Notes under the pieces: model-generated | Told to the model about the DNA's origin: nothing | Database searches by the model: none | What the model saw: the letters and a program-made list of their open reading frames with translations, nothing else | Shown here: piece after piece, positions 44,648 through 51,309 of the stretch | Position numbering within the stretch: position 1 is the stretch's first letter | Layout: each line of letters begins with the position of its first letter | Position numbers and translations under genes: made by a program | NCBI RefSeq assembly: GCF_009792295.1 | Contig: NZ_CP039934.1 | Location: 640,501 to 704,500, forward strand | Origin: Myroides fluvii | GTDB lineage: Bacteria > Bacteroidota > Bacteroidia > Flavobacteriales > Flavobacteriaceae | Reading direction: 5' to 3' | Length of the DNA stretch: 64,000 nucleotides

Positions 44648-45661
44648 CAGTTTACGGTTTACGGTTAACTGTTAACAGTGCCCTGCAAACCGCAAACTGT
44701 AAACCTTTAAATTTGCTTTTTCGTTTTTTCGCAAGTTGCTTTTTCGCCAGATTATCGATTAAAGAATATATGTATTCTTAAATCAAAAAATTAACCGATA
44801 CCCCATAACTGATAACTATTTTGGACACACAGTATGTCCTCGACGCAAGGAGAGGACGCATCCGTTACTCAAAGCTTTCGATTAGAGAACAATTTACCTA
44901 TTCAGAAAACGCAAACCGTAAACCTTTAAATTTGCTTTTTCGTTTTTTCGCAAGTTGCTTTTTCGCCAGATTATCGATTAAAGAATATATGTATCCTTAA
45001 ATCAAAAAATTAACCGATACCCCATAACTGATAACTATTTTGGACACACAGTATGTCCTCGACGCAAGGAGAGGACGCATCCGTTACTCAAAGCTTTCGA
45101 TTAGAGAACAATTTACCTATTCAGAAAACGCAAACCGCAAACCGTAAACCGTAAACTGTAAACCGCAAACCGTAAACCTTTAAATTTGCTTTTTCGTTTT
45201 TTCGCAAGTTGCTTTTTCGCCAGATTATCGATTAAAGAATATATGTATTCTTAAATCAAAAAATTAACCGATACCCCATAACTGATTACTATTTTGGACA
45301 CACAGTATGTCCTCGACGCAAGGAGAGGACGCATCCGTTACTCAAAGCTTTCGATTAGAGAACAATTTACCTATTCAGAAAACGCAAACCGCAAACCGTA
45401 AACCGTAAACTGTAAACCGCAAACCGTAAACCTTTAAATTTGCTTTTTCGTTTTTTCGCAAGTTGCTTTTTCGCCAGATTATCGATTAAAGAATATATGT
45501 ATTCTTAAATCAAAAAATTAACCGATACCCCATAACTGATTACTATTTTGGACACACAGTATGTCCTCGACGCAAGGAGAGGACGCATCCGTTACTCAAA
45601 GCTTTCGATTAGAGAACAATTTACCTATTCAGAAAACGCAAACCGTTAACCGTCAACCAAC
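44648..45661. repeat. Four tandem copies of a 219-254-bp repeat
   Basis: Copies begin at 44701, 44920, 45174 and 45428. Each runs from AAACCTTTAAATTTGC through GCAAGTTGCTTTTTCGCC, ATCGATTAAAGAATATATG, a hairpin (GTCCTC with GAGGAC) and ends in CAGAAAACGCAAACCG. Length differs because of varying numbers of TAAACCG/CAAACCG heptamers at the joints. Copies are nearly identical. The core resembles the 80-bp repeats at 5.45-5.72 kb. The block follows the end of rtcB; a 60-codon frame inside is a by-product. Confidence 0.92.
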
Positions 45662-47092
45662 TCAATCCTCTCTACTTCCGTCATCGGCCATACGGACGAT
45701 TTTAGGGGTAAACATCGCTACTACATCGACTAACTCACCTTGAGCGGCCATCACTTGATGAATATCTTTATACGCCATCGGTGCTTCATCTTTTCCAGCT
45801 CCGATGAGTTCTACTCCGTGATCTTGTAGAACAGCCTTTATATCGCGTGCTTTTAGCGTTTTAATGGCTTGTGTTCGACTCATTTGTCGACCAGCTCCAT
45901 GGGAAGCAGAATGCAAGGCTTCCTCTTCTCCTTTTCCTCGAACTAAAAATCCTGGTGCGGTCATGGATCCTGGGATAATTCCCATCACTCCTTTACTGGC
46001 TGGTGTTGCTCCTTTACGGTGGACAATCACCTCTTTCCCTTGGTACATTTCCTTCCACGCAAAATTATGGTGGTTCTCAATTTTAGCTAACACTTCTGCT
46101 CCAATGGCTTTGGTCAATTTATCGTGAATCACCTCATGACAAGCGGATGCATAATCACCTGCTAAATTCATCAACGTCCAATATTCTTGTCCGGCTTCTG
46201 AATTCAGATCCAAGTACGCCAAGTTCTTCGCTTCATGTGGCAACTTACATTGGTCTTTGGCAATTTGGGTATATCGACCAGCAATCATGGCTCCCATTCC
46301 TCGGGATCCTGAATGGGTCAGTAGAGCCACATAAGTTCCTTTATCAATATTCAATACCTCATCGCGTTCCAAGAACTCCATCAGTCCCCATTCTACAAAG
46401 TGATTTCCCCCTCCAGAAGAACCCAATTGCGCCCATGCTTTATCGTGTAAATTCTTGATAAAAGGGTTCAGGTTAAATTCACCACGGTCTAAAATAGCAT
46501 GTTGCGCTTTGTATTGTCCCAGGAACCCATGCCCTGCACCAAACTTGGTATGTTTCACCAATTGTTCTTTTAATAGGGCTTCCATTCCGTAGAATTCTAT
46601 TCCCTTCATATCAAAAATAGACAAGGCCATTCGACATCCAATATCCACCCCAACTCCATAGGGAATAACGGCATTTTCTGTGGCTAAAACCCCTCCAATA
46701 GGCAATCCATACCCTTGGTGGGCATCGGGCATCAAGGCTCCAGCAACCGCCACGGGTAATTTTACGGCTACTTCCATCTGACGAATAGCTCCTTCTTCAA
46801 TATGCTCTGATCCGTAGATACTATAAGCAACGGCTTCTTCTCTCAGTGGGATCACCTCTTCTTCTTCTCGTTGACCAACGCCTTCGATAATAGCAGTGGC
46901 TAGTTTTCCAAATATCTTATGGTTGGTGTAATCTTCGGCATTATCCAACACCATTTTGTAATGGGCTAACATTTCTATTTTCGTTAACCCTGTTCGCTTT
47001 TTATTTGCCTTTAACGCAATACCTACTAGTTCTGTTTGTGGGTATCCTAAGGCTATTAAATCGTTCCCGTTAATTGGGGTATTCTTTTCCAT
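45662..47092 (-). CDS. rtcB: RtcB-family RNA ligase
   Basis: The 476-residue protein is a complete RtcB, the GTP- and Mn-dependent ligase that joins RNA 2',3'-cyclic phosphate (or 3'-phosphate) to 5'-OH ends. Metal and nucleotide motifs are seen: P-D-A-H-Q-G-Y-G-L-P-I-G-G, V-G-V-D-I-G-C-R-M-A, S-G-G-G-N-H-F-V-E, T-H-S-G-S-R-G-M-G, and S-H-G-A-G-R-Q-M-S-R with the guanylylated His. It lies downstream of slipin on the same strand, with a 605-base gap filled by heptamer repeats. No RtcA, Rsr or PrfH gene is present. Confidence 0.95.
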   Translation of the reverse strand: MEKNTPINGNDLIALGYPQTELVGIALKANKKRTGLTKIEMLAHYKMVLDNAEDYTNHKIFGKLATAIIEGVGQREEEEVIPLREEAVAYSIYGSEHIEEGAIRQMEVAVKLPVAVAGALMPDAHQGYGLPIGGVLATENAVIPYGVGVDIGCRMALSIFDMKGIEFYGMEALLKEQLVKHTKFGAGHGFLGQYKAQHAILDRGEFNLNPFIKNLHDKAWAQLGSSGGGNHFVEWGLMEFLERDEVLNIDKGTYVALLTHSGSRGMGAMIAGRYTQIAKDQCKLPHEAKNLAYLDLNSEAGQEYWTLMNLAGDYASACHEVIHDKLTKAIGAEVLAKIENHHNFAWKEMYQGKEVIVHRKGATPASKGVMGIIPGSMTAPGFLVRGKGEEEALHSASHGAGRQMSRTQAIKTLKARDIKAVLQDHGVELIGAGKDEAPMAYKDIHQVMAAQGELVDVVAMFTPKIVRMADDGSRED

Positions 47093-47136: not shown

Positions 47137-47697
47137 ACCGTCAACCATCAACTGTCAACCATCAACTGTCAACCATCAACTGTCAACCATCAACTGTCAA
47201 CCGTCAACCATCAACCGTCAACCGTCAACCGTCAACCATCAACCATCAACCGTCAACCATCAACCGTCAACCATCAACCATCAACCGTCAACCATCAACC
47301 GTCAACCATCAACCATCAACCATCAACCATCAACCGTCAACCGTCAACCATCAACCGTCAACCATCAACCATCAACCATCAACCATCAACCATCAACCAT
47401 CAACCATCAACCATCAACCATCAACCATCAACCATCAACCATCAACCATCAACCGTCAACCATCAACCATCAACCGTCAACCATCAACCGTCAACCGTCA
47501 ACCGTCAACTGTCAACCGTCAACCGTCAACTGTCAACCATCAACTGTCAATCGTCAACCGTCAACTGTCAACCGTCAACCATCAACCGTCAACCATCAAC
47601 CGTCAACCATCAACCATCAACCATCAACTGTCAACCGTCAACCATCAACCGTCAACCATCAACTGTCAACTGTCAACCGTCAACCGTTAACGATCAA
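47137..47697. repeat. About 80 tandem heptamers (TCAACYR) between slipin and rtcB
   Basis: The plus strand is a head-to-tail array of TCAACCA, TCAACCG and TCAACTG; TA at the two variable positions does not occur in the main array. All plus-strand frames stay open and produce a heptapeptide repeat (P-S-T-V-N-H-Q); on the minus strand, the direction of the operon, TGA stops recur every 21 bases in each frame. It therefore is non-coding in the operon mRNA. Similar heptamers occur at 5.5-6.3 kb, 44.7-45.7 kb and 53.05 kb. Confidence 0.95.
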
Positions 47698-48789
47698 CTA
47701 CCCAAATACTTCTTTTAATTGTTTCAATACATTTCCACCACCAGACAAACTGATTTCCCCAACTTTATCAGCGATTTTCTCCATGTATTCCATCTCTTTC
47801 AATCGCATCAACATATCATTTTCTTCCATCAATTTGGCGGTGTTCAGCAAACTACGGGTAGCCGCTGTTTCTTCTCTTCTCGTAATCATATTGGCTTGTG
47901 CTTTTTTCTCTGCAATCAACACCTGATTCATAATCTCTCGAATATCTCCTGGCAAGATGATATCTTTGATACCACAAGCTTTTAAGTCGATTCCCAAAGC
48001 GACAAGTTCCGCTTGCACGTCTTCCAAAATAGCTTGGGAAACATTTTCTTTGTTTTCCATCAATTCATCGAAAGATAGGCGACCTACTTTTTGTCTCAAC
48101 ATCAATTGAACGACATTGTACATTTGCTTCTCTACCTCTTTGTTTGCCACATAAGCGATTAACAAATCACGGACTTGATAGACGATGTTGAAATTGATGC
48201 GCAATTGTACTTTGTCCTTGGTCAAGATTTCTTGTCCATTCATATCCATCGTTTGTTGACGTACATCCACAACGAGGACTTGCACTTTAATTTCATTTTT
48301 CCAATAGCAGTAATCTCCTGCATTCAAAACCCCTTGAAATTGTTCATCGACAAATAGCAATCCCTTTTCATTTGCTCCCACAGTGTACATACGCAAGAAG
48401 TTGAGCATATTGCCTTTGGTTCTGATGTTTCTAGCAATCGCAACAGGCACTTCTAAGGTGGTTGTCTGATAGCGTTCAAACGAATAGATTCCATTGTCTT
48501 TCCAATAGATATAACGTCCTGCAGCTACTGCCGTATGAAAGATTTTGTTTTTGTACACCAAAACCACTTCGTTATCCATCACATCGACGATTTCTAACAT
48601 CTCCACTAGCTGCTCATTTTTCAACAACGCATCCATATCTCTACGCATAGGGAATAGTTCGGCTTTGTTATACTCTACCACTTCTTTATTTCCCCATAAC
48701 CAATACTGACCTGCGGAATGTACTTTTTGCAATTCTCCTTGGTTAAACACTAAGGCTACGTGGTTGGTTTTTACTTGTAACTTTTTCAT
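47698..48789 (-). CDS. Slipin-family SPFH/band-7 protein
   Basis: The 363-residue protein has an N-terminal region with repeated hydrophobic strands (H-S-A-G-Q-Y-W-L-W-G, V-A-A-G-R-Y-I-Y-W, L-N-A-G-D-Y-C-Y-W), then the band-7 domain (V-V-D-V-R-Q-Q-T-M-D-M-N-G-Q-E-I-L-T-K-D) and a helical end (A-E-K-K-A-Q-A-N-M-I-T-R-R-E-E-T-A). It lacks a clear membrane helix. Slipins form large membrane-linked rings and are found beside rtcB in several bacteria. It is the first protein gene after the tRNA-like leader. Confidence 0.85.
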   Translation of the reverse strand: MKKLQVKTNHVALVFNQGELQKVHSAGQYWLWGNKEVVEYNKAELFPMRRDMDALLKNEQLVEMLEIVDVMDNEVVLVYKNKIFHTAVAAGRYIYWKDNGIYSFERYQTTTLEVPVAIARNIRTKGNMLNFLRMYTVGANEKGLLFVDEQFQGVLNAGDYCYWKNEIKVQVLVVDVRQQTMDMNGQEILTKDKVQLRINFNIVYQVRDLLIAYVANKEVEKQMYNVVQLMLRQKVGRLSFDELMENKENVSQAILEDVQAELVALGIDLKACGIKDIILPGDIREIMNQVLIAEKKAQANMITRREETAATRSLLNTAKLMEENDMLMRLKEMEYMEKIADKVGEISLSGGGNVLKQLKEVFG

Positions 48790-48871
48790 TTTTATCTTTT
48801 TTATTTTTTATGTCATGTGTATAAAAGAACAGCCTCAATTAGGTTTCCCTTGCGGTTGGCGGAAAAAGAAG

Positions 48872-48906
48872 CAGACTAAAAAATTAGATTATTTGTTTAT
48901 AGTCTG
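48872..48906 (-). terminator. Candidate attenuator/terminator inside the leader
   Basis: CAGACTA pairs with TAGTCTG across 21 bases; on the minus strand CTTCTTTTT follows. It is weaker than the other terminators here, so partial read-through into slipin is plausible. Confidence 0.4.
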
Positions 48907-49064
48907 GAATCCCTCAGCAAGCAAGTGATTCGCCCTATATCATCCCTAATCCTCTTTTGTAGCCTCGCTTGTTTTTACAGGCTTAGGCAAGGTGTTTTGT
49001 GCAGTCTTTCTCAAGAGAAAAACAGCTAAAACAGAAACACTAATGGACTGAACTTTTTTTTGGA

Positions 49065-49085
49065 GGAGATTTTTAGAAGATCTCC
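49065..49085 (-). ncRNA. Leader hairpin with 9-nt loop
   Basis: GGAGAT pairs with ATCTCC around CTTCTAAAA. It is followed by an A run, not U, in the operon direction, so it is not a terminator. Confidence 0.55.
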
Positions 49086-49097
49086 AACTTCATCATG

Positions 49098-49114
49098 ATT
49101 GCTTTTAAGGCAAT
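49098..49114 (-). ncRNA. Anticodon-arm-like hairpin (5-bp stem, 7-nt loop)
   Basis: On the minus strand ATTGC pairs with GCAAT around the loop CTTAAAA. A 5-bp stem with a 7-nt loop, U at position 33 and A at 37 is what an anticodon arm shows; the loop would read UAA at positions 34-36. Its stem sequence equals that of the acceptor stem of the adjacent tRNA-like unit, so the two can exchange partners. Confidence 0.6.
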
Positions 49115-49117
49115 TGG

Positions 49118-49185
49118 TATTCTACTCTAACCAGCTGAGTTATATTGCTACTGCAATAGTAGGATTCGAACCTACGACCCGAATA
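49118..49185 (-). ncRNA. Circularly permuted tRNA-like element (unit 2)
   Basis: Read on the minus strand from 49185: TATTC (anticodon stem 3' side), GGGTC (variable loop), GTAGG-TTCGAAT-CCTAC (T arm, 5 bp, 7-nt loop), TATTGC-AGTA-GCAATA (acceptor stem closed by 4 nt), TA (positions 8-9), ACTC-AGCTGGTTA-GAGT (D arm, 4 bp), A26, GAATA (anticodon stem 5' side). GAATA and TATTC pair perfectly. All four cloverleaf stems thus pair fully and loop consensus bases (TTCGAAT, A14, GG, A21, U8) are kept, but the 3' half precedes the 5' half and the anticodon loop is where the element is open. Ordinary tRNA order does not fold. Confidence 0.82.
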
Positions 49186-49186
49186 A

Positions 49187-49247
49187 CAGAATTAAACCAC
49201 TAGTCATTCACCGAAGCGAATGTGAGGAGTCGAACCTCATTATTCTA
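49187..49247 (-). ncRNA. Second, degenerate permuted tRNA-like element (unit 1)
   Basis: On the minus strand from 49247: TAGAAT, TGAGG-TTCGACT-CCTCA (T arm, 5 bp, 7-nt loop), CATTCGC-TTCG-GTGAATG (acceptor stem of 7 bp including one G-U, capped by a UUCG tetraloop), then a D-loop-like AGTGGTTTA with a poor stem, and ATTCTG, which pairs with TAGAAT (one G-U). Same order as unit 2 and one base from it. The D arm is weak, so this unit is less tRNA-like. Confidence 0.62.
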
Positions 49248-49351
49248 CACATACAAACAGGATAAGGGGAACGATTGTGCCTTACTTCCGCGCTATACTG
49301 AAACGCTTCCAAGGTTTGTATCTTTCGAACAGTACAAAGATGCATACCCAT

Positions 49352-49372
49352 GTCCGCAAGCGAACTGCGTAG
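49352..49372. promoter_or_regulatory. Operator-like site 3 (GTCCGCA-N7-TGCGTAG)
   Basis: Same 7-base spacing and same right arm (TGCGTAG, then AT) as the perfect sites; the left arm differs at two positions. It lies just inside the predicted start of the leader RNA, exactly 100 bases from site 2. Confidence 0.6.
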
Positions 49373-49385
49373 ATGAAAATATTTT

Positions 49386-49415
49386 CAAAATAAAACCGTA
49401 AACACTGTAAATCAA
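49386..49415 (-). promoter_or_regulatory. Predicted promoter of the leader-slipin-rtcB operon
   Basis: Minus strand TTG (49413-49415), 19 bases, then TTATTTTG (49386-49393), seven of eight matches to TAnnTTTG. It lies between operator sites 2 and 3. Confidence 0.55.
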
Positions 49416-49451
49416 GGAATTAAAAATTAAAAAAAGAGTATAAAAAAACAA

Positions 49452-49472
49452 CTACGCATAACTATTGCGTAG
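49452..49472. promoter_or_regulatory. Operator site 2 (CTACGCA-N7-TGCGTAG)
   Basis: A perfect 7-bp inverted repeat spaced by TAACTAT. With its A-rich left flank it is identical over about 29 bases to the site over the WYL gene promoter. It lies upstream of the -33 element of the leader promoter. Confidence 0.82.
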
Positions 49473-49534
49473 ATAAAGAATAAAAGTAGAATAAATCACC
49501 TAAAAAAGTAGACTGTATGGTCTATAAACAAAAA

Positions 49535-49564
49535 AAAGAGGTGCTTCTTTGGAACAACCTCTTT
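49535..49564 (-). terminator. Terminator after GNAT gene
   Basis: AAAGAGGT pairs with ACCTCTTT and the minus strand continues in T residues. It insulates the GNAT gene from the slipin-rtcB promoter. Confidence 0.85.
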
Positions 49565-49591
49565 CGACCTACAGCTTTATAGGGGAAGATA

Positions 49592-50149
49592 TTACAACTG
49601 AACCTGCATGATTTGATTGTTGTAATAGCGATGATTAGCTTTGATAAAAGCAGGCATGATGCCAATGGTTGTAAAACCGTGTTTTTGGTACAACGCAATA
49701 GCTGCCTTGTTTTCTTCATAAACCTGAAGCCAAATTAATTCTAGTTGACGCTGTTGCTTAGCCCAATCCATCGCCTGACAAACAAGTGCGGTTCCTAAAC
49801 CACAACCTCTCCATTCCTTTAGCATTCCCATCCCTAAAATAGCGGTATGTTGCAATGCCTTCCTTCCATGTCCGGTTAAGTCGAGATTCCCTATAATCCT
49901 TCCTTCATATTCTGCCAACAAAAAAAGCGAATTAGAAGCTGTTTGCAAAGAAGTAATCCAGTGTACTCCTTCTTCTTCTGTTTTCGTAAATTCAGCTGGT
50001 TCTAATGGAATGTATTCGCTGTCTTCTAAATACGTTTGTATCAATTGAATTAGAGCCAAAGCATCTTCAGGTTGAGCTTCTCTAATGACCACCTGTTTCT
50101 TGTTCTTTAAAAGAACGCATTGGGAATGAAAGTTGGGTTTTATCGTCAT
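49592..50149 (-). CDS. GNAT-family N-acetyltransferase
   Basis: The 185-residue protein has the GNAT acetyl-CoA site M-G-M-L-K-E-W-R-G-C-G-L-G-T-A-L (R/Q-x-x-G-x-G/A type, near residue 111) and N-K-A-A-I-A-L-Y-Q-K-H-G-F at the end of the domain. The substrate is unknown; the N-terminal segment V-V-I-R-E-A-Q-P-E-D-A resembles RimI/RimL-like amino-acetylases. It sits between the RNA-repair operon and its regulator, but its own terminator suggests it is not part of either unit. Confidence 0.9.
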   Translation of the reverse strand: MTIKPNFHSQCVLLKNKKQVVIREAQPEDALALIQLIQTYLEDSEYIPLEPAEFTKTEEEGVHWITSLQTASNSLFLLAEYEGRIIGNLDLTGHGRKALQHTAILGMGMLKEWRGCGLGTALVCQAMDWAKQQRQLELIWLQVYEENKAAIALYQKHGFTTIGIMPAFIKANHRYYNNQIMQVQL

Positions 50150-50217: not shown

Positions 50218-50262
50218 CTACGCATAACTATTGCGTACTTCTGTGCATTTTGCGTATTTTTG
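50218..50262 (+). promoter_or_regulatory. WYL gene promoter overlapped by operator site 1
   Basis: CTACGCA-N7-TGCGTA (50218-50237) contains the -33 TTG (50231-50233). After 21 bases comes TATTTTTG (50255-50262), an exact TAnnTTTG box, 25 bases before the ATG. The operator covering the -33 element predicts autoregulation. Confidence 0.82.
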
Positions 50263-50286: not shown

Positions 50287-51309
50287 ATGGCAACAAACAA
50301 ACTAGCGCTTTTGCGTTACCGCATTATTGATGAATGTTTACAGAATCGATTCAGAAAATGGACCTTGAACGACCTAATTGAAAAGGTGGCCGATGGGTTA
50401 TATGAATACGAAGGCATAGATACGGGAATTAGCAAGCGCACGATTCAATCGGATATTCAGAGTATGCGCAGTGATAGTTTGGGCTATAATGCGCCTATTG
50501 TTGTGGTAGATCGAAAGTACTATACCTATGAAGATCCGCAGTACAGCATAAAAAACTCACCGATCAATGAGGCGGATATGGAAAAGCTCAAAGAAGTGGT
50601 TTCAATTTTAAAACACCTCAATGGATTTAGCCAGGTAGATGAAATGAGTGAGGTGATTGCCAAACTAGACAATAGTTTGCTAACGCGCAGTACACAAGCC
50701 CCGAACTACATTCAGATGGAGGGCAACCCATTGTTGAAGGGAATTAAGTTCATTAGCCCGCTATACGAAGCGATAAAGAGCAAGCAAACCTTATTGATCG
50801 AATACAAATCATTCAAGTCCAAAGAGGCTTCTAAACAGTTCTATTATCCGTATTTACTCAAGGAATACCGCAACCGTTGGTTTTTGGTTACTAGAGCGAG
50901 TAAAGGGCGTCATTTACTCACCTTGGCCTTAGACCGCATCGTCAATGTTTATTCCATTGCCAATGAACCGTACAAAGCATACCAAGGGGTTGATTTTGAT
51001 CGTTACTTTGAAGATACTTTAGGTGTAACCAAAACAGAACAAGACCGCGCACAAAAAGTAATCCTCTGGGTGAATCAGTACCATGCCCCTTATGTCAAAA
51101 CAAAACCCCTACACAGCTCTCAAGTGGTGTTAGAAGAAAATGAAAAGGGAATGAAAATTCGCTTGGATGTGGTGCTTAACTTTGAACTAGAGCGCGAAAT
51201 ACTGGGCTTTGGGGAAGCCATCGTCGTTCTTTCTCCCCGTCATCTGCAACGACAGATTGCCAAACGCGTGGAGAAAATGCATCAACATTATTTGAAAGAA
51301 GAGCTCTAA
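50287..51309 (+). CDS. WYL-domain transcriptional regulator
   Basis: The 340-residue protein has an N-terminal winged helix (about residues 1-80: L-R-Y-R-I-I-D-E-C-L, R-K-W-T-L-N-D-L-I-E, G-I-S-K-R-T-I-Q-S-D-I), the WYL domain (about 160-235) with Y-Y-P-Y-L-L-K-E-Y-R-N-R-W-F-L-V near residue 185-202, and a WCX-type C-terminus (V-L-W-V-N-Q-Y-H-A-P-Y to R-Q-I-A-K-R-V). WYL domains sense nucleic acids or nucleotides in known defence and DNA-damage regulators. The same palindrome at its promoter and before the slipin-rtcB leader makes it the likely controller of both. Confidence 0.9.
   Translation: MATNKLALLRYRIIDECLQNRFRKWTLNDLIEKVADGLYEYEGIDTGISKRTIQSDIQSMRSDSLGYNAPIVVVDRKYYTYEDPQYSIKNSPINEADMEKLKEVVSILKHLNGFSQVDEMSEVIAKLDNSLLTRSTQAPNYIQMEGNPLLKGIKFISPLYEAIKSKQTLLIEYKSFKSKEASKQFYYPYLLKEYRNRWFLVTRASKGRHLLTLALDRIVNVYSIANEPYKAYQGVDFDRYFEDTLGVTKTEQDRAQKVILWVNQYHAPYVKTKPLHSSQVVLEENEKGMKIRLDVVLNFELEREILGFGEAIVVLSPRHLQRQIAKRVEKMHQHYLKEEL

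Follow-up and report, generated by a model that had tools for sequence, protein, structure and literature searches.

The window analysed here, 64,000 nucleotides (nt) of the Myroides fluvii genome, carries on its minus strand an RNA-repair operon in which a slipin gene is followed by rtcB, with the gene of a WYL-WCX regulator running divergently upstream (Table 1). A preliminary description of this DNA, made from its letters alone, had proposed that the operon is led by a circularly permuted tRNA-like RNA, here termed unit A. We examine unit A and the leader around it by comparative sequence analysis. On this evidence the minus strand of 49118-49185 is a segment that folds as a circularly permuted tRNA, which confirms the observation, and with slipin and RtcB encoded downstream it does stand at the head of an RNA-repair operon.

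Table 1 Coordinates of the permuted element, the leader RNA and the associated genes and sites in the window
Feature	Position	Strand	Evidence
Unit A, circularly permuted tRNA mimic	49118..49185	-	Rfam match, held-out covariance model, covariation
Anticodon-stem 3′ strand TATTC	49181..49185	-	pairs with GAATA 49118-49122
T arm GTAGG-TTCGAAT-CCTAC	49159..49175	-	parse
Acceptor stem TATTGC-AGTA-GCAATA, 4-nt loop as cap, without CCA end	49143..49158	-	parse
D arm ACTC-AGCTGGTTA-GAGT	49124..49140	-	parse; A14/G18/A21 equivalents invariant (53 sequences)
Anticodon-stem 5′ strand GAATA	49118..49122	-	parse
Second, weaker permuted unit: T arm TGAGG-TTCGACT-CCTCA, acceptor CATTCGC-TTCG-GTGAATG	49188..49246	-	22.6 bits, E = 0.0047 (held-out model)
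Separate anticodon-type hairpin ATTGC-CTTAAAA-GCAAT, U33, triplet UAA	49098..49114	-	5 bp/7-nt loop
Large structured RNA, leader of slipin-rtcB, about 485 nt, holding the mimic(s)	48858..49343	-	kept in 12 leaders of the Myroides group
Slipin (SPFH/Band 7) gene downstream of the RNA	47698..48789	-	PF01145, 2.4e-30
rtcB, RNA ligase	45662..47092	-	PF01139, 1.3e-80
WYL-WCX regulator gene, divergent	50287..51309	+	domain match; GNAT gene between it and leader
Palindrome YRCGCA-N7-TGCGYR, one mismatch, at presumed RNA promoter	49353..49371	.	pattern scan
Perfect palindrome copy	49453..49471	.	pattern scan
Perfect palindrome copy in front of WYL gene	50219..50237	.	pattern scan

Structure and conservation of the permuted element

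Read 5′ to 3′, the 68 nt of unit A run through TATTC and GGGTC, the T arm, the acceptor strands with their loop (TATTGC AGTA GCAATA), a TA dinucleotide, the D arm and a closing A GAATA. This is the permuted order that had been claimed, and all four stems are fully paired as stated (T arm 5/5, acceptor 6/6, D arm 4/4, anticodon stem 5/5). The equivalents of U8, A9, A14, G18, G19 and A21 are invariant or nearly so, as is the core of the T loop, the tRNA numbering of these positions being our own assignment. The acceptor end is capped: among 139 parsed units the acceptor loops measure 3-9 nt and CCA occurs in two. ARAGORN called no tRNA gene in the 64,000 nt of the window, and Rfam at its gathering thresholds returned no match there.

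A search with the slipin protein yielded 79 loci, of which 78 (L032-L109) were used and one (L110, a 52-residue slipin match with no T arm upstream) was left out; these 78 and the window make up the 79 leaders referred to below. Within the Myroides group, 11 relatives and the window were aligned while ignoring pairing. In these 12 leaders the 25 pairs of the four permuted stems and the downstream hairpin are 97.9% formed, with slid controls pairing at 30-55%; two-sided changes are found at 8 of the 25, and the covariation score of the alignment was reached by none of 500 shuffles. The compensations touch the acceptor (TATTGC/GCAATA, CATTGC/GCAATG), the D stem (ACTC/GAGT, GCTC/GAGC, GATC/GATC) and the anticodon stem (TATTC/GAATA, TATTT/AAATA, TGTTC/GAACA), and none was seen in the downstream hairpin in this 12-leader alignment. 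More widely, 53 of 74 distinct unit-A sequences could be aligned with 97.5% of cells paired (slid controls 42-52%) and two-sided changes at 18 of 20 pairs, amounting to 283 such cells where shuffles give 79, a covariation that is partly circular because its rows had already cleared a pairing filter (passed by 75 of the 79 leaders).

A separate covariance model was therefore built from 35 of the 63 distinct unit-A sequences outside Myroides and applied to targets outside its training set, namely the window, 11 Myroides-group loci and 22 other Flavobacteriaceae loci (34 sources). This held-out model matches unit A of the window with 74 bits (E = 1.8e-16; 231,814 bases searched), and its best match attains at least 51 bits in each of the 34 sources. 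In all, this model, designated R2, gave 76 matches across the 34 sources, some of them at tRNA genes; the training of another model, R1, includes Myroides rows, so that the window's own R1 score is high by construction. The preliminary description had held that four such stems would be unlikely by chance, and the held-out score, the covariation and the Rfam match described below bear this out; conservation and compensatory change in related slipin leaders, which it had suggested seeking with a model of the permuted order, are both present. The compensatory changes thus argue for continued selection on the permuted pairing. On the other side, the single-sequence folding energy is unremarkable (z = -1.07 for the 68 nt, z = +0.33 for 171 nt).

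The leader RNA and its distribution

Eleven Myroides-group upstream regions align well with the window from about 49343 to 48858. For this region RNAalifold predicts 97 pairs, 29 of them with two-sided changes, including a long-range closing helix (GGAA 49310-49307 with TTCC 48864-48861) that lies outside the reach of covariation because its core never varies. This prediction makes the mimic a domain of a larger RNA. The large RNA had not figured in the preliminary description, and neither had the second unit or the anticodon-type hairpin.

The nearest relatives of the slipin belong to Myroides species (up to 88% identity), and the leader RNA is kept across Myroides, Chryseobacterium, Pedobacter, Flexithrix and Saprospiraceae. 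The structural parse accepts unit A directly upstream of slipin in 75 of the 79 leaders, the window included. A T-arm scan found at least two units in nearly all leaders of Chryseobacterium, Epilithonimonas, Pedobacter, Flexithrix and Saprospiraceae, with a single unit in L048 and L051; in the Myroides group, the T arm of the second unit was found in 6 of 12 leaders. Of 199 Flavobacteriaceae genomes, 134 give a slipin match at E ≤ 0.001 and 23, the source genome included, have an ortholog by a cut of our own at E < 1e-90 (next best match 1.5e-17). All 23 ortholog-bearing genomes have an R1 match 0.33-0.74 kb upstream of slipin on the same strand. Whole-genome scanning with R1 is noisy, with matches at E ≤ 0.01 in 147 of the 199 genomes; of five matches away from slipin that were inspected, four are junctions of tandem genuine tRNAs and the fifth is next to a tRNA, close to where its contig ends. 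In one genome (G000:C1:2320549-2320979) R1 matches are regularly spaced at about 108 nt, and this run probably reflects tandem tRNA genes matched across their borders, which illustrates a possible origin of the mimic. No earlier report of the leader RNA was among the matches listed in a search confined to the open literature.

The hairpin of the window follows the permuted body as a distinct and complete element. Hairpins of this class (A) occur in 56 of the 79 leaders and in 10 of the 12 from the Myroides group, with loops that are mainly CTCAAAA, CTGAAAA or CTTAAAA. The preliminary description had read the RNA as imitating a tRNA already opened at its anticodon loop; given this intact hairpin, it is not simply such an imitation. 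Outside Myroides class A was located through particular stem words, so that conservation of its stem there is uninformative; the stem does read ATAGA/TCTAT in many Chryseobacterium versus ATGGA/TCCAT in several other Flavobacteriaceae, a compensatory change. A switch pairing the anticodon-stem strands of unit A with hairpin A through ATAG/CTAT words shared in Chryseobacterium was considered and dropped, by eye only, because the words fail to change together in Myroides, L051 and L101.

A second class of hairpin (B), near-adjacent to the D arm of unit B, is found in 52 of 67 non-Myroides leaders and has U33 in 49 of these 52; mononucleotide shuffles at the B site yield a hairpin in 7.1% of cases and one with U33 in 1.9%. 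Because the D arm leads almost directly into this hairpin in most relatives, unit B appears to be permuted at the variable region. At 42 Chryseobacterium-type loci the entropy of the B stem is 0-0.53 bit, versus 1.19-1.96 bit at loop positions 34-38, and among the 52 hairpins the commonest triplet is UUU (14), with UCA (5), ACG (4) and GUC (4) also represented. Loops with A34 accompany Leu-like D arms in 10 of 11 cases, as against 6 of 41 for the others (Fisher p = 4.8e-6, uncorrected for relatedness), so that D-arm type and loop co-occur as if entire tRNA identities had been copied.

Relation to YrlA and Ro60

A sensitive Rfam scan of 48790-49600 gave one strong match, to YrlA (RF02553), at 49116-49185 on the minus strand (41 bits, E = 1.5e-7), in keeping with the kinship to the tRNA-like non-coding RNAs of rsr-yrl-rtcBA operons that had been suggested. 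The match covers model positions 21-89 of 114, leaving 1-20 and 90-114 unmatched. Leader matches of 36.7-42.2 bits are found in five of nine relatives, the other four having none at E ≤ 0.001, and the YrlA gathering score of 69 bits was reached neither in the window nor in 10 + 9 relative loci nor in 15 Ro60-positive genomes. In L054 and several Ro60-positive Chryseobacterium genomes the leader match spans the full model (1-114); in two such alignments (L105, L073) the terminal pairing is made of D-arm letters of unit A and letters behind hairpin B, and the terminal stem looks forced.

Ro60, searched for by its TROVE domain, was not found in the source genome and was found in only one of the 199 Flavobacteriaceae genomes, so that the RNA persists without Ro60. 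The leader RNA is a relative of the YrlA effector module, one that in Myroides certainly occurs without Ro60. A Ro60 gene lies downstream of slipin in 15 of the 78 loci, all from Chryseobacterium. The 15 Ro60-positive Chryseobacterium genomes examined all hold an extra YrlA-like match which, judged by coordinates, is placed past the slipin locus on its Ro60 side and which spans the whole model in 13; for G200 no leader match confirms that both are on the same contig. The two extra elements that were inspected (L129 and L131, outside the leader) carry a terminal stem of their own. As a further observation, extra tRNA-like modules with long acceptor loops and a weak tmRNA match stand beside the Ro60 genes at L131:2030-2121 and L129:1789-1864. 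The reading of unit A as a Ro60-bound Y RNA was rejected for genomes in which no Ro60 was found; in Chryseobacterium it is unlikely, the full-span YrlA matches of the leaders keeping it slightly open.

Genomic context

Flanks of up to 3 kb were fetched for each locus and several contigs were shorter, so that the absence of a gene from a flank is unproven. Of the 78 loci, 23 have a divergent WYL gene upstream and 8 have RlaP in the flank; an RNase_T exonuclease and tRNA genes are also among the neighbours. ARAGORN called tRNAs in 15 of the 78 loci, the call in L064 being the mimic itself, which leaves 14. Among 22 further Flavobacteriaceae leaders, 18 have at least one upstream ARAGORN tRNA, 16 without calls that overlap the mimic, and in L004, L005, L008 and L009 the palindrome is separated from the mimics by tRNA genes. 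Two Saprospiraceae loci (L094, L097) have tRNA arrays on both sides of the slipin locus, amounting to 13 and 15 genes within some 7 kb.

A palindrome of the form ACGCA-N6/7-TGCG precedes the RNA in 68 of the 79 leaders, versus 0.3% of mononucleotide shuffles. For the window, a first pattern with N6 spacing proved wrongly spaced and was replaced by N7. The resulting YRCGCA-N7-TGCGYR matches the 3.77-Mb genome exactly at three sites, of which two are the perfect copies near the leader. With one mismatch allowed, the pattern is as frequent genome-wide as its reversed control (46 versus 44), so that the signal lies in clustering only and not in the count; the window holds three sites against 0.71 expected, a number reached by 2 of 100 shuffles. 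Behind the palindrome at the presumed promoter stands GCATCTTTG (49335..49343, minus strand), which we take to be a possible flavobacterial -7 element, and similar words were seen by eye at a comparable distance behind the palindrome in many loci.

Some further features of these clusters may be recorded. The GNAT gene of the window (49592-50149) is flanked by two letter-identical perfect palindromes, and a GNAT relative between WYL gene and leader is present in the window and L041, with none found in the remaining loci of the Myroides group, an arrangement that suggests insertion with duplication of the operator. The interval from slipin to rtcB (47137-47698) is taken up by a 14-bp unit (ACCGTCAACCATCA) in about 40 tandem copies, TCAACCG arrays resembling it repeat between 5517 and 6301, and just downstream of rtcB (44687-45658) lie tandem long units of 219-254 bp (98% matches) with AAACCGT micro-repeats. 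Matches to Flavo-1 RNA (RF01705) occur in or near several clusters, passing the cut-off at L082:6452-6540, L073:6929-7045 and L105:6571-6654 and falling below it at L077:2742-2816 and L129:777-869; the L077 match sits inside the leader, between mimics and slipin.

Discussion

Comparative analysis establishes the leader of slipin-(RlaP)-rtcB loci as a large, conserved structured RNA that contains one or two permuted tRNA bodies with an intact elbow of T and D arms. At most loci the leader also carries a complete anticodon-type hairpin with U33, or two of them, and it resembles the tRNA-like half of YrlA, retained in genomes where Ro60 was not found. What such an RNA is for can be proposed with less assurance. 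We tentatively favour, at somewhat less than even confidence, a YrlA-type tRNA mimic that is independent of Ro60, would be induced along with RNA repair and would act as bait for, or competitive inhibitor of, tRNA-cleaving enzymes. The WYL repressor would occupy the promoter palindrome and be released upon tRNA damage; the RNA would then be made with the repair operon from the predicted promoter and, in some lineages, with spare tRNAs. Its permuted bodies could bind enzymes that recognise tRNA by elbow and anticodon, its variable anticodon hairpins could bait locally relevant tRNA-cleaving nucleases or toxins and so spare the real tRNAs, a cut mimic could be resealed by RtcB, and the capped acceptor would exclude the mimic from charging and translation. 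Taken further, the tandem mimics, unable to be charged, would constitute a damage-induced RNA antitoxin whose exchangeable hairpins are retuned between species to the prevailing tRNA-cleaving toxins, produced under a WYL sensor alongside the RtcB kit and spare tRNAs, and arisen by detachment of a YrlA mimic from Ro60. This extension is possible, and we advance it as a conjecture.

In favour of the bait proposal we count the covariation and the held-out score, the tie to slipin in the 23 ortholog-bearing genomes, persistence without Ro60, the B hairpins with variable triplets on a nearly fixed stem, the co-occurrence of D-arm type and loop, the capped acceptors, the repair and tRNA genes nearby and the palindrome. 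Several observations weigh against it. The D arm of the window's second unit is poor, 15 of the 67 non-Myroides leaders, all 7 from Pedobacter among them, yielded no hairpin B, and its variable triplets could reflect relaxed constraint and not tuning. Only 24 of the 78 loci have rtcB within the fetched flank (in 21 it follows on the same strand, in 3 it lies upstream), and the stricter palindrome occurs in only 10 of the 22 further Flavobacteriaceae leaders. In the available excerpt of Hughes et al. (PMC7790460), fragments of Salmonella YrlA went undetected and competitive inhibition was proposed; the undetected fragments indicate that Salmonella YrlA is not a substrate of the nuclease concerned, and these results therefore support inhibition, a decoy that acts uncut, and speak against cleavage. 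Lastly, the ordinary Rfam tRNA model, which scores 15.9 bits in the window leader under a sensitive scan, passes its 29-bit cut-off in the leaders of 8 of the 10 relatives scanned (L049, L054, L060, L064, L066, L071, L085 and L088; L043 and L082 fall below).

Given these passes, in which the matches join parts of adjacent units, part of the RNA is also readable in unpermuted order, and the unpermuted acceptor pairing was therefore put to the test. At the 56 loci where both units were parsed, acceptor pairing is 0.99 within unit A and 0.97 within unit B, values that the parse favours, and only 0.47 between the 5′ strand of unit A and the 3′ strand of unit B; with cross-unit pairing of at least 5/6 in none of the 56 loci, the unpermuted reading of units A and B was rejected. 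In L073, unit B might alternatively be read with hairpin A in the place of the T arm. The same observations bear on whether the leader could be what is left of tandemly arrayed tRNA genes, or else a permuted gene from which a functional tRNA is made. Such arrays would be a natural origin, in that R1 also matches where genuine tRNAs adjoin in tandem, many loci have genuine tRNA genes nearby and the ordinary tRNA model passes in most leaders scanned. The compensatory changes, however, point to selection maintained on the permuted pairing, the unpermuted acceptor fails to pair, and the short acceptor loops, nearly always devoid of CCA, leave scant room for a mature 3′ end. On the strength of compensatory change and capped loops, a working permuted tRNA and a pseudogene were rejected, and we give this explanation as a whole hardly any credence.

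A more serious contender, in our view still somewhat unlikely, is a scaffold: the bodies would tether RtcB, RlaP, a nuclease, modification enzymes or the membrane-bound slipin in a ribonucleoprotein, as Y RNAs do, with the hairpins merely completing the tRNA shape. YrlA is described, in the accessible portion of PMC8394870, as binding Rsr through its basal stem and PNPase through its tRNA-like domain and as a substrate of DusA and TruB. The Rfam YrlA matches in the window and in relatives' leaders, the size of the RNA with its additional predicted domains, and its tie to slipin in all 23 ortholog-bearing genomes would suit such a role. It is at odds with the unmatched YrlA termini of the window and with the failure to find Ro60 in 198 of the 199 family genomes, and it leaves the variable triplets within a near-fixed stem unexplained. 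Alternatively, the leader could be a sensor in cis, its mimics being cut by tRNA-damaging nucleases and the cutting or refolding altering slipin-rtcB expression. Its position directly upstream of slipin, the conserved palindrome ahead of it and the intact anticodon-type hairpins are compatible with this, yet the divergent WYL gene, where present, and the palindrome would already offer a transcriptional sensor, which argues weakly against a second one; we consider a cis sensor unlikely, and of the options raised in the preliminary description the decoy is the leading reading over the damage sensor. The option placed foremost there, an RtcB substrate that becomes a circle, draws on the rtcB gene of this operon and on RtcB genes found somewhere in the genome in 22 of 23 genomes tested. 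It does not survive well: the body is not bordered by an open anticodon loop, the hairpin being separate and intact, it forms part of a more extensive region that is conserved, and rtcB is seen in fewer than a third of the fetched flanks. A circle is accordingly very improbable.

The bait proposal and its rivals aside, these results widen the class of YrlA-type permuted mimics to a common, mostly two-domain RNA with anticodon-type hairpins that persists in the absence of Ro60 and heads RNA-repair operons in several Bacteroidota lineages. The purpose of a tRNA mimic in rtcB operons thereby becomes a testable question, as the variable anticodon loops predict a match to tRNA-cleaving enzymes, a prediction that Salmonella YrlA cannot offer.

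Comparison with known systems

Among known systems, the tmRNA shares with the leader RNA the placement of a tRNA mimic inside a larger RNA; no tmRNA match was listed for the window leader in the Rfam scan, in which overlapping matches of the same clan are collapsed. Circularly permuted tRNA genes of algae and archaea have the same order of 3′ half, short link and 5′ half, and are associated with a bulge-helix-bulge motif in the part of PMC3978253 available. They differ in that the link of the mimic is 3-9 nt long with CCA in 2 of 139 loops, so that the mimic is an unlikely source of a working tRNA. In Anabaena, according to the available text of PMC10272220, TrcR represses a silent tRNA array, rtcB and a slipin gene, and tRNA genes beside slipin recur in many of the loci studied here; the repressor there is of the ribbon-helix-helix (RHH) type, whereas here it is a WYL gene, and the term 'tRNA-like' is absent from the main text of that paper, as far as that text is available. 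Partial texts of two other papers describe RlaP as acting alongside RNA ligases (PMC7824862) and WYL domains as predicted ligand sensors (PMC4012209).

The closest counterpart is YrlA of the rsr-yrl-rtcBA operons, which shares both the permuted module (T arm, closed acceptor, D arm and exit through the anticodon stem) and the setting in an RNA-repair operon. The available part of PMC8394870 likens Salmonella YrlA to the D, T and acceptor arms only. The leader RNA, in contrast, has one or two tandem bodies in a leader of about 485 nt or longer together with complete anticodon-type hairpins; its match in the window leaves the terminal stem unmatched and lies below the Rfam cut-off, Ro60 was found in only one of the 199 Flavobacteriaceae genomes, and Ro60-positive genomes hold further YrlA-like matches elsewhere in the same cluster.
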